This document shows, in pieces, positions 1-3,759 of a stretch of 15,499 nucleotides of DNA. Made by a program: the position numbers and the translations under genes. Source of the DNA: Clostridia bacterium (GTDB lineage Bacteria; CBDUZB01; JAGLHV01); assembly GCA_030595925.1 (NCBI GenBank), contig JAUVLC010000059.1:1-15499 (forward strand). The letters are read 5' to 3'. The first letter of the stretch is position 1. Each line of letters starts with the position of its first letter. The notes under the pieces were generated by a model. That model saw only the letters and a program-made list of their open reading frames with translations. It was not told the DNA's origin and searched no databases.

Positions 1-422
1 GAATTTGCAATCACAAAATCAATAAAAAAATTTGAAAATAAAATACTCGGCTTATAATTTTTTATTCCTCTGTCATGCCATATTATTTTTGGTTTTTTTC
101 CAAATAATGTAAATCTTGCCAAACAACTCATTACTGTCGGAATAACCGACTGCGAATGAACTATCCCAATATTATATTTTTTTATAATATTTTTTATATG
201 TTTTGCCCCTAAAAGTATATGCCACGGTTTTCTTCCTTGAATTGGAGATAAGATAATTTCTACAGAATTAACAATAAATTCTTGTAACATAAGACCACCG
301 GAAGTCATAACATACACATTATGTCCACTCTTTTTAAGTTCTTTAGCCAAAGAAAGAGTAGATAATTCCTCTCCCCCCACTCTCAAACACGGTGATACTA
401 GTAAAATATTGTATTTTTTCAT
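1..422 (-). CDS. GT4-type glycosyltransferase, N-terminal part (cut by window edge)
   Basis: Reading down from an ATG at 422-420 the frame stays open to base 1, giving 140 residues. The start MKKYNILLVSPCLRVGGEE is the classic opening of GT-B fold, GT4-type glycosyltransferases: a first beta strand, then a glycine-rich loop (here RVGGEE, residues 14-19) before a helix. A second strand (HNVYVM, 34-39) and a later IVHSQS-type strand (88-92) fit the acceptor-binding domain. The C-terminal donor domain lies outside the window, so the sugar cannot be guessed. An AAGG ribosome site lies inside the end of the upstream gene, 9 bases before the ATG, and only 4 bases separate the two genes, so they are almost certainly cotranscribed and probably translationally coupled. 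Confidence 0.85.
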   Translation of the reverse strand, partial: MKKYNILLVSPCLRVGGEELSTLSLAKELKKSGHNVYVMTSGGLMLQEFIVNSVEIILSPIQGRKPWHILLGAKHIKNIIKKYNIGIVHSQSVIPTVMSCLARFTLFGKKPKIIWHDRGIKNYKPSILFSNFFIDFVIAN

Positions 423-426
423 TTAT

Positions 427-1593
427 TTAAACCTTAACTAATGATTTATAAACATCAATATATTTATCTACAATTTTATCCCAGGTAAATTCCTTAACTA
501 TCTCTTTGCTTTTCTTTCCAAACCGTTCTGCTAAATCAGGATTTTCCAGTACATTTATAATGCCACTTGCTAAATCTTCTGGAGAATCGGGTTCAACTAA
601 AATAGCATTCTCTCCCTCTTTAACAACTTCAGGCACACCTCCCACTCTGGTTGCTACAATTGATTTAGCTACCGCCATTGCTTCCAACAAAACAATGCCA
701 AAAGCTTCTTTTCTTGATGGTAAAACAAAAATTTCACAACCCCTTAAAAACATTGGAATTTTTGAATGTTTTATTTTACCTAAAAACTTAACTGAATCCC
801 CAATACCAAATTCAGAGACAATTTTCTCACATTTTGTCTTTCCTGAACCTTCACCTACAATTAATAAATTTAAATCCGGACACTTAAAGTGTACCCTATT
901 AAACGCCTTAATGAGAATATCAAAACCTTTATTGAATGAAATATTACCTATACTTAAAATATATTTTGAATTATTCTTATATTTATCAAAATTATCAAAA
1001 CGTTTTAAATCAATACCATTTTCAACTCTCCTTGATTTTACTGCTACTTCTGGACATATTTTCTTTGCCTGACACAACAAATAATCGGAATTAGAAAGCA
1101 CATAATCCGCCTCTTTCAATGTTATTCTTGTTAACCAACGGGCAAAAAAAGAACGCTGTAAACATCTATCTATATCTGAACCATGAATATTTACTATAAA
1201 TTTGGATTTCAAAAACTTTCTCACAACCAAATAAAAAAAAGCATTTTCCGCAATATAATGAAGATTTACTATATCCGGTTTTATTGATTTTATAATCAAC
1301 CCTAATTTAATCAAAGTTAAAGGAATTATCAATGGACTAATAATAGACTTTAACAAACTTAATACTGCTCTTTTATATCCACACCTTAGAACAATTCGAG
1401 GAAGGATAAAAGGCATACGATAAACACAAATTCCACCTTCTTCCATCTTTTTAGAATAACTAATAGCCGATGTTCCTGACACCACTGTTACTCTATGCCC
1501 CTTTTGCGATAATTGATGTGCAATATTATAAACTGCTATTTCCAATCCTCCTAATTGTGGTAAATATGAATTTGTTAGCAGAAAAACCTTCAT
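427..1593 (-). CDS. GT4 family glycosyltransferase
   Basis: A 388-residue protein of normal GT4 length. The N-terminal half opens with MKVFLLTNSYLPQLGGLE, with the glycine loop at 15-16, and carries an HGSD segment at 137-140. The C-terminal half has the nucleotide-sugar donor domain: GNISFNKGFD at 216-225, the IVGEG strand at 245-249 and a full EX7E motif (E296 and E304 in EAFGIVLLEA), followed by the VGGVPEVV loop near 317-324. It should transfer one sugar from a nucleotide or lipid donor to the growing lipid-linked glycan at the cytoplasmic face. The donor is not predictable. The ATG at 1593 is preceded by GAAGG with 6 bases of spacing, a strong site. The next gene starts 4 bases after the stop. 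It lies downstream of the cassette-like insert at 1733-2482, and a candidate promoter stands in its own leader. Confidence 0.93.
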   Translation of the reverse strand: MKVFLLTNSYLPQLGGLEIAVYNIAHQLSQKGHRVTVVSGTSAISYSKKMEEGGICVYRMPFILPRIVLRCGYKRAVLSLLKSIISPLIIPLTLIKLGLIIKSIKPDIVNLHYIAENAFFYLVVRKFLKSKFIVNIHGSDIDRCLQRSFFARWLTRITLKEADYVLSNSDYLLCQAKKICPEVAVKSRRVENGIDLKRFDNFDKYKNNSKYILSIGNISFNKGFDILIKAFNRVHFKCPDLNLLIVGEGSGKTKCEKIVSEFGIGDSVKFLGKIKHSKIPMFLRGCEIFVLPSRKEAFGIVLLEAMAVAKSIVATRVGGVPEVVKEGENAILVEPDSPEDLASGIINVLENPDLAERFGKKSKEIVKEFTWDKIVDKYIDVYKSLVKV

Positions 1594-1726: not shown

Positions 1727-1790
1727 AGCTAACGACCAAACTCACTTGCCGCTATGGAACATAGCGCTCAAGTACAATATCTTGTTAGGC
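1727..1790 (-). other. attC-like (59-base-element-like) recombination site
   Basis: On the minus strand this 64-base element begins GCCTAAC (1790-1784), a match to the R'' consensus RYYYAAC, and ends GTTAGCT (1733-1727), matching the R' consensus GTTRRRY at all but one place. Five base pairs join the two ends. Then come 7 unpaired bases on each side, then an inner stem of ACTTG with CAAGT and CGCTATG with CATAGCG around a TTC loop. The two stem segments are separated by a 2-by-1 bulge, resembling the extrahelical base of integron attC sites. The TAA stop of the upstream methyltransferase lies inside the GCCTAAC box, exactly as in many integron cassettes. Seen directly: the boxes, stem and stop overlap. 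Inferred: recombination function. No integrase is in the window. An ordinary intergenic hairpin remains possible. Confidence 0.55.
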
Positions 1791-2482
1791 TTTCTCGTAT
1801 ATGTAAAAATCAGAAAGCGAACTTTCTTCATTATTGCCATTGTACGGTAGTCTATTTGGTATATGATGTATCAAGTTCCAGTCAGATTTGTTTGTTTCAA
1901 CCCACCTAGTGAACTGCCTACGCTTCTCATGGTATTGTTGTTCTTTATCGTAATTTGATGAATATATAATCACAAATCGTTCCGAAGAGTTAAATAACCT
2001 TTCCATATAAAAATAATAAACGTTATCTTCTATTAAGTGATAAATCACATCCAGGGAAAGCGTCAATTGGGCCGTTTCTCCTTTATATTCAGTCATTAAC
2101 CTGAAGCTTTTGGTTTTGTCGGACTGAAAAATATCCTGGCAAAGTGCTATTGCTTTTGAACTTACATCAAAACCGATACATGATGGGTATTCTGCAAGTT
2201 TCAATTGATTCCCATCGCCACAACCATATTCTATGATTGTGGTAACATTGTTATTTTTCACAAAATGGTTGATTATCTCGGCCTTGAATTCTGCAAGACG
2301 GTTGTATGAACCTGCTCCGGAATTTCCATCTGAATTGTATCTCTGGGTCCAATAATCCTCAGAACCTAGAAACGGTTTTAGGTTGTTAAATAACAAACTA
2401 TAAACCTTTCTGGCGAAAATTCTAACAATTGGTATTCTCTTAATGATTTCTTTCATATCCTGATTTCCAAAATAAGGACTAA
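1733..2482 (-). mobile_element. putative single integron-type gene cassette carrying a methyltransferase
   Basis: If the attC-like site at 1727-1790 is real, the cassette would start after the G of a GTTAGTC sequence (2483-2477 on the minus strand), about 26 bases before the methyltransferase ATG. It would end at the G of GTTAGCT (1733). Both junctions read G followed by TTAG. The resulting 750-base unit holds one gene, a short leader and a terminal attC, the standard cassette build and size. No palindrome precedes the first junction, so this would be a lone cassette at a secondary site, not part of an array. The higher G+C inside than outside (see the gene entry) supports a foreign origin. 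Integrase and neighbouring cassettes are absent from view. Confidence 0.45.
1785..2456 (-). CDS. class I SAM-dependent methyltransferase, probable foreign cassette gene
   Basis: A 223-residue protein. After a basic, partly hydrophobic N-terminus (1-28) it has SEDYWTQRYNSDGNSGAGSY (32-51), a head I associate with small methyltransferases of surface-glycan loci. SAM motif I follows as IIEYGCGDGNQL (74-85), with the acidic end of the next strand at GFD (95-97) and a post-motif SLDVIYHLIED (134-144). Likely role: methylation of a sugar or glycan intermediate in the cytoplasm; substrate unknown. Its TAA stop lies inside the attC-like box GCCTAAC. A hand count of four 60-base rows in the gene (starting 2041, 2101, 2221, 2281) gives 91 of 240 G+C, against 43 of 180 in rows 901, 2581 and 3361 of neighbours. 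It is separated by 61 and 191 bases from genes that otherwise lie close together. All this fits acquisition from elsewhere. Confidence 0.85.
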   Translation of the reverse strand: MKEIIKRIPIVRIFARKVYSLLFNNLKPFLGSEDYWTQRYNSDGNSGAGSYNRLAEFKAEIINHFVKNNNVTTIIEYGCGDGNQLKLAEYPSCIGFDVSSKAIALCQDIFQSDKTKSFRLMTEYKGETAQLTLSLDVIYHLIEDNVYYFYMERLFNSSERFVIIYSSNYDKEQQYHEKRRQFTRWVETNKSDWNLIHHIPNRLPYNGNNEESSLSDFYIYEKA

Positions 2483-2517
2483 CTTAATAACTCGGCTTAT
2501 AATAACCAACGTAACTC

Positions 2518-3759
2518 TCATGCTACTACTCCTTTTCCCATAATCTTATTATTAAAAACCGCATCTTTTTTTTCAAGTTTCTTTTCTAATATTTTTTTTG
2601 CTGTTCCATAAACCTCATTTACTGTAATTAATTTCATACATTCATTACTTTGACAAGACATTTTTTGGCATGGTGAACAAGAAACATTATGCCTAATTAT
2701 GGCTACATTTTCTGAATCCTGATAACAATTCCAATGAGCAATCTGACCCGGACCAAACAAAGCCACAACAGGTAGACCAATAGCTGCAGCCATATGCATT
2801 GGACCAGAATCATTACATATAAATAATTTCAACTCTGACATCAATGCTGCCAATTGGCGTATTGTTGTTTTACCATTTAAAATAATTGGTTTATACTTCA
2901 TCAAATTACTTACTTGAAGAGACAAATCCATTTCATTATACGACCCGATTAGTACAACTTCCACTCCAAAGTCTTTAATTAAAAAATCAGCCACCCGAGC
3001 AAATTTTAATGGTGCCCAACATTTTGTCGATTGTTTAGAACCCGGATGTAAACCAACCAAAATTTTATCCGGTGAAATTCGAAGATCATTATAAAGCAAC
3101 CTCTGCATATATGCTTTATCCGATTCGTAAATCCAATATTCAGGATTGCTCCTTACATTTTTAAAATTTAAAAATTTTAATAGTTTCAAGTTTTGCAAAA
3201 TTTCATTTTGACAATAATCAAATTTTACGCATACATCTAGTAAGCGTGTATCCTCTTTTGCCCGAAGTTCACCAAATCTAATTTTTTTATCAAAACCGAT
3301 GATATATTTCACTCCCATAAAAGCACCGGCATAAGCAAATCCTGTTTCTGCAGAGGAAACAATAAATAAATCAAAGTGTTCCTTTCTTAAACTAACTATT
3401 TGCTTCAGTCTCTTTAACAAGGATTTTTCAGATTTAAATTTTATAATTTTATTTATATAAGAACAACCATCTAATGTTTCTATTCCTAATTTTTCCTCAG
3501 CCAATACGCATATATAAGAATCCGGCAAATTTCTTCTTAGTTCCCTTAAAAACGGAATAAATACTATCATATCTCCCATACATTGAGAACGAGTAACCAA
3601 AATTCTTTTTATTGTACCATTTCTTATAGCTTCATTAATTCCTTTCAAACCAAATAATTTTAGTGCTTTTTTCCTTATTCCCCAATAATATCTAATGAAA
3701 AAAAATCGTATCAAAAAAATAGGAATTGTTTTTATCAATATATTTATTTTGTTTTTCAT
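2518..3759 (-). CDS. GT9 family glycosyltransferase (ADP-heptose:LPS heptosyltransferase-like)
   Basis: A 413-residue protein of the heptosyltransferase family. KRILVTRSQCMGDMIVFIPF (51-70) is the GT9 N-terminal strand and GDxxxxxP loop, with D63 at the place of the catalytic aspartate. The donor domain has LHPGSKQSTKCW (237-248), the NDSGPMH loop (316-322) and GLPVVALFGP (328-337). Close to the C-terminus a cysteine group, C361, C364, C369 and C374, followed by M375, matches the pattern often seen in this family. An extra roughly 50 residues precede the core and include a hydrophobic, basic stretch (10-30) that may hold the enzyme at the membrane. It starts by an ATGA overlap with the upstream GT4 gene (four shared bases), so translation is coupled. 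The family uses ADP-heptose most often, but GT9 members in such loci can use other donors. Confidence 0.92.
   Translation of the reverse strand: MKNKINILIKTIPIFLIRFFFIRYYWGIRKKALKLFGLKGINEAIRNGTIKRILVTRSQCMGDMIVFIPFLRELRRNLPDSYICVLAEEKLGIETLDGCSYINKIIKFKSEKSLLKRLKQIVSLRKEHFDLFIVSSAETGFAYAGAFMGVKYIIGFDKKIRFGELRAKEDTRLLDVCVKFDYCQNEILQNLKLLKFLNFKNVRSNPEYWIYESDKAYMQRLLYNDLRISPDKILVGLHPGSKQSTKCWAPLKFARVADFLIKDFGVEVVLIGSYNEMDLSLQVSNLMKYKPIILNGKTTIRQLAALMSELKLFICNDSGPMHMAAAIGLPVVALFGPGQIAHWNCYQDSENVAIIRHNVSCSPCQKMSCQSNECMKLITVNEVYGTAKKILEKKLEKKDAVFNNKIMGKGVVA

Follow-up and report, generated by a model that had tools for sequence, protein, structure and literature searches.

A single integron-type gene cassette within a chromosomal polysaccharide operon of an uncultured bacterial phylum

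Results

A cassette unit between two glycosyltransferase genes

In the window (the whole 15,499-nucleotide stretch analyzed here), a 750-bp unit made up of one predicted methyltransferase gene and one attC site separates two glycosyltransferase genes of a polysaccharide locus (Table 1), and the unit probably originated as a gene cassette of the host genome's own pool that an integron integrase placed in an intergenic gap of the operon, using a secondary (attG-type) site. As judged from the sequence and Pfam matches, every gene of the locus lies on the minus strand, and the encoded products include a Wzc-like kinase, an O-antigen ligase-like protein, and a flippase (names read by eye from the sequences), together with glycosyltransferases and methyltransferases. 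The host is a metagenome-assembled genome (MAG) with 193 contigs totaling 2.60 Mb and a completeness of 97%. Its phylum is represented in the comparison by three genomes; two congeners of the host were compared.

Table 1 Positions of the cassette, its attC site, and the flanking genes in the window
Feature	Position	Strand	Basis
attC site, 64 bp, R''-L''-L'-R'	1727..1790	-	two covariance models and bottom-strand fold
R'' box GCCTAAC, holding the methyltransferase stop TAA	1784..1790	-	sequence; likewise in L015
R' box GTTAGCT	1727..1733	-	sequence; cleavage at GTT of GTTRRRY (PMC10127599)
Bottom-strand hairpin: L stem 1744-1748/1769-1773, inner stem 1750-1756/1760-1766, loop 1757-1759	1744..1773	+	fold
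Gene cassette unit, 750 bp, TTAGTC to G of R' (T2482-G1733)	1733..2482	-	G|TTAG at both junctions
5' junction box GTTAGTC; G2483 on the target side, TTAGTC on the cassette side	2477..2483	-	sequence
Flanks joined if the cassette is removed: ...GAGTTATTAAG|TTAGCTATTTCC...			reconstructed from the window
Class I SAM-dependent methyltransferase, 223 aa, cassette cargo (predicted)	1785..2456	-	AlphaFold model and fold matches
GT9 glycosyltransferase, upstream neighbor of the cassette	2518..3759	-	Pfam PF01075
Group 1 (GT4) glycosyltransferase, downstream neighbor of the cassette	427..1593	-	Pfam PF00534

Covariance models identify a genuine attC site

An Rfam scan of the window gave no match near threshold, so covariance models were made for the purpose. 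The generic model (R1) comprised 32 attC sites, drawn from gammaproteobacterial genomes with an integrase and from plasmid-borne class 1 integrons, with 117 two-sided changes in support of its structure versus 39 in shuffles. The host-trained model (R2) comprised 11 attC sites from the host genome and two from a congener, the window site being excluded, and showed 41 two-sided changes versus 17 in shuffles. R1 gave the window site 21.1 bits (E of 0.002 in the window and 0.35 genome-wide; next-best place in the window, 8.4 bits) and also matched much stronger attC sites elsewhere in the host genome, up to 60.6 bits. With R2 the window site reached 42.0 bits (E of 6e-8 in the window and 1e-5 genome-wide; next-best place, 10.5 bits), and no second attC site was detected in the window. 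In a search of 22 genomes with R2, 13 yielded no match at E<=5, indicating that the models do not fire at random. Positions 1790 to 1727 of the minus strand are a real attC site.

The plus strand, corresponding to the bottom strand of the attC site, folds with six end pairs, a 5-bp L stem, a 2x1 internal bulge, a 7-bp inner stem, and a 3-base loop, at an energy of -10.4 kcal/mol that was equaled by one of 200 shuffles. The R''/R' and L''/L' boxes, the extrahelical base, and the bottom-strand fold that characterize attC sites are all found here. Pairing of R' with R'' is imperfect, and two pairs of the L region are G-T in the top strand and A-C mismatches in the bottom strand; from these mismatches, the site may be decayed. 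An earlier note, made from the sequence, had described the GCCTAAC, GTTAGCT, and GTTAGTC boxes and a 64-base palindrome with an attC plan, and each of these elements is present. Its end pairs, 2x1 bulge, and 3-base loop also held, while the spacers are 9+9 rather than the 7+7 it gave. The covariance-model check that it had proposed for the attC reading was passed with both R1 and R2, neither of which contained the window site among its training sequences.

Boundaries, composition, and orientation of the cassette

The unit runs from T2482 to G1733 with G|TTAG at both junctions, as the earlier note had outlined, and the 5' junction box stands 20 bases upstream of the methyltransferase start codon. 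At its sixth base, each GTTAG box departs from strict GTTRRRY; with these deviations, one gene and its attC site form a unit between crossover points of the G|TTRRRY type. At the 3' junction, G1733 belongs to the cassette, and TTAGCT (1732-1727) would belong to the target. The unit has a GC content of 35.6%, and the methyltransferase gene has a GC3 of 0.353, compared with 0.198–0.294 in the other ten genes tested. Both flanking glycosyltransferase genes are intact and co-directional, and 35 bp separate the end of the GT9 gene from the 5' junction. The cassette is oriented in the direction of the operon, and hence the methyltransferase gene is readable with it. A search for terminator-like sites at the cassette found none, making co-transcription plausible.

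A 14-base exact repeat, ACTCGGCTTATAAT, occurs at window positions 45-58 and 2490-2503, the second copy lying 6 bases from the 5' junction box. Two matches to this repeat were found in three of 200 shuffles.

Probable insertion at a secondary site

To insert a cassette, an integron integrase uses the folded bottom strand of attC and cuts it between G and TT; off-target or secondary-site insertion at GNT/GTTRRRY outside integrons is also documented (PMC10127599), and attG sites are described as secondary insertion sites by Loot et al. 2024 (cited in PMC12444791 and PMC12901181). In the proposed event, a circular cassette bearing one methyltransferase gene and an attC site of the kind found elsewhere in the host genome would have been the substrate, and a G|TTAGCT sequence in the previously empty gap of roughly 175 bp between the GT9 and GT4 genes would have been the target. 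The integrase would act on the folded attC bottom strand and cut between G and TT, and replication would then resolve the insertion, leaving the cassette in operon direction, where it could plausibly be co-transcribed. Insertion at AAG|TTAGCT explains both junctions, the single attC site, and the lack of a site upstream. The arrangement has the attributes of a secondary site, with neither attI nor attC 5' of the cassette and with GTTAGCT as a GTT core. Since there is no att site at its 5' end, the cassette would be poorly excised and may thereby have become fixed in place.

The window contains no integrase, attI, or array at the place of the cassette. Together with the attC scores, the single attC site in the window, and a homologous cassette in another phylum (locus L015, below), this supports the suggestion of the earlier note that a cassette was captured outside an integron.

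Further attC sites in the host genome and the search for an integrase

A genome-wide search with R2 (E<0.02) found at least 18 attC sites on 12 contigs of the host genome, in small arrays and as singletons; 11 of these are R2 training sites and seven are not, the window site being among the seven. The cassette described as lone in the earlier note is therefore lone in the window, which has no other attC site, and not in the genome, where the search for further sites that it recommended found at least 17 others. Contig C50 carries five attC sites within 8 kb, and contig C159 carries two, together with genes for ParA, a conjugation-type ATPase (both named by eye), and a small tyrosine recombinase; on each of these contigs, at least two attC sites lie close together without intI, as in a CALIN. 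The short contigs C21, C48, and C155 resemble fragments of an array, and singleton sites occur on C8, C25, C121, C135, and C136. Most sites in the examined stretches come after the stop codon of a small gene, and among the cargo are an AAA_13 protein, a MutH-type nuclease, and RhuM and DUF488 proteins. The singleton cassette on C135 (L139:6989-9423) holds an AAA_13 (anticodon-nuclease-like) gene and adjoins nif-like genes.

One attC site is kept at the same place in two species (G000:C8, L140:5320-5380, in the host; G002:C339, L186:6199-6259, in a congener), indicating that lone attC sites can be inherited across species divergence. An attC array likewise occupies the same chromosomal place by FtsX-like genes in both species (G000:C104, L184; G002:C201, L185) with different cassettes, and the host contig C104 ends at its array.

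No match to an integron integrase exceeded the family cut-off in the 97% complete host MAG, the outcome of the intI search that the earlier note had also called for, and none did so in the two congeners. Two recombinases of the host genome were considered and rejected as integron integrases, one on C53 that is XerC-like and the one on C159, a minimal tyrosine recombinase of 174 aa. An intI gene with the integron-specific extra region, accompanied by attI, was thus not found in the host genome. Assemblies break at array ends, so a missing intI is no proof of absence, and the gene could be unassembled, the array contigs being short.

The arrays bear on an alternative in which the window preserves the remnant of an integron or CALIN that shrank to one cassette, a rearrangement having brought polysaccharide genes alongside. 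Such a history is compatible with the several small attC arrays of the host genome and with the array at one place in two congeneric species with different cassettes. However, upstream of the 5' junction, which is 35 bp from the end of the GT9 gene, there is no attI or attC half-site; no second attC is found in the window, and the two glycosyltransferase genes are intact and run in one direction. We consider this history improbable.

Origin of the cassette

Among 56 attC sites compared, that nearest to the window site is on host contig C21, which matches it at 52 of 64 positions and shows, in the L boxes, a paired C-G to T-A change. Taken together, host attC sites were not significantly nearer to it than foreign attC sites (p=0.09), and it is just the single best match that comes from the host. 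DNA and protein searches of the two congeners for an empty site returned only distant paralogues of the flanking genes, with no orthologue of the GT9 gene (<=34% identity within the genus) or of the GT4 gene.

The lack of the locus in the congeners, as well as the scattering of the methyltransferase family across many phyla, would also be expected if the whole polysaccharide locus had been transferred horizontally with the cassette already inside, the insertion having taken place in another host. This account is unlikely, given that the nearest relative of the window attC site is a host-genome site and that the host-trained model scores it at 42.0 bits versus 21.1 for the generic model, a gain that low GC alone could partly account for.

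The methyltransferase and its relatives

The AlphaFold model of the cargo protein has a pLDDT of 90.4, and Foldseek matched it to many class I methyltransferases, the chitooligosaccharide N-methyltransferase NodS being among the best TM-scores. Its Pfam match to Methyltransf_23 was below cut-off, and a sequence search of solved structures gave no match. Relatives at 44-68% identity are scattered across many phyla and do not track species relations. At least five (L014, L017, L019, L021, and L025) adjoin glycosyltransferase genes, and no attC site was detected near the methyltransferase gene in these five loci. A plasmid search with the protein gave homologues in Sinorhizobium, Pantoea, and Priestia alone, the highest identity being 51%, and a phage search gave none. 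On gene content, the window cassette sits in a type of locus where relatives of its cargo often lie, and a sugar or glycan intermediate made by this polysaccharide locus is its probable methylation substrate.

In a Desulfobacterales MAG, which belongs to another phylum, a homologue with 62% identity is an attC-bounded cassette (L015:462-1230), showing that the methyltransferase gene does travel as a cassette. Its attC site scores 36.5 bits, GTTAGGC lies 21 nt upstream of the ATG, the stop codon is inside R'', and the cassette adjoins acyl-CoA ligase-like genes. About four attC sites, and no integron integrase over the cut-off, were found in that genome. The L015 cassette also lies beside housekeeping genes, near a contig end.

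As to ordinary operon membership with conserved flanks and no palindrome, which the earlier note had set against its own reading, the methyltransferase family is commonplace in glycosyltransferase loci elsewhere, and the data contained no relative with the same flanks. That the palindrome arose by chance or is a transcription terminator, with the methyltransferase an ordinary operon member, could draw on such attC-free relatives beside glycosyltransferases and on the generic model's genome-wide E of only 0.35, but is highly improbable in view of the host-trained score (42.0 bits, genome-wide E of 1e-5), the lack of any terminator-like site in our search, the stop codon within R'', the G|TTAG at both ends, and the cassette homologue in another phylum.

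Discussion

Insertion of single cassettes outside integrons is already known from plasmids and experiments, an example being aadB in RSF1010 (Recchia and Hall 1995, as cited in PMC10127599 and PMC12444791). Natural cases in a gene cluster that fits the cargo are rarely documented, and the window adds one with good support, from a glycan operon on the chromosome of a bacterium in an uncultured phylum. It shares with secondary-site (attG-type) insertions a lone cassette and attC outside an integron, G|TT junctions, and no 5' att site. Unlike the known cases, it is natural, chromosomal, and from an uncultured phylum, no integrase was found in the host, and its cargo is a non-resistance gene of a family common in such loci. 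A CALIN likewise has attC without intI; the window, however, holds one attC site, whereas default reporting needs two. IntegronFinder 2.0 by default reports clusters from two attC sites, with single sites noted as possibly real (PMC9024848), surveys commonly omit single attC sites as likely false positives, and an archaeal survey left singletons out. The mutual resemblance of attC sites within one genome and the arrays of small accessory genes at other places in the host genome recall a sedentary chromosomal integron, but the place in the window has no intI, attI, or array.

A single attC site can thus be verified by a model trained on its own genome and can flag a gene that a chromosomal operon has captured. 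Should lone cassettes prove common, integrons would supply genes to core and surface-glycan loci as well as to arrays. As a tentative possibility, cassettes may serve some uncultured lineages as genome-wide delivery, with single cassettes repeatedly dropped into fitting operons, selected, and inherited, and with the integrase rare, external, or lost. In the host and several other searched genomes, attC sites are spread over many contigs and the search returned no bona fide integron integrase, a scattered pattern worth a survey. Large-scale cassette spread is seen in the Ca. Thiosymbion genome that contains L025 (G070), with 113 attC matches scattered over most large contigs, alongside an intact integron integrase gene and two interrupted ones. 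A genome from another phylum (G003, 59% complete) has 19 R2 matches on many contigs, and short integrase-like gene fragments at C44:2911-3190 and on C82 that look like remnants.
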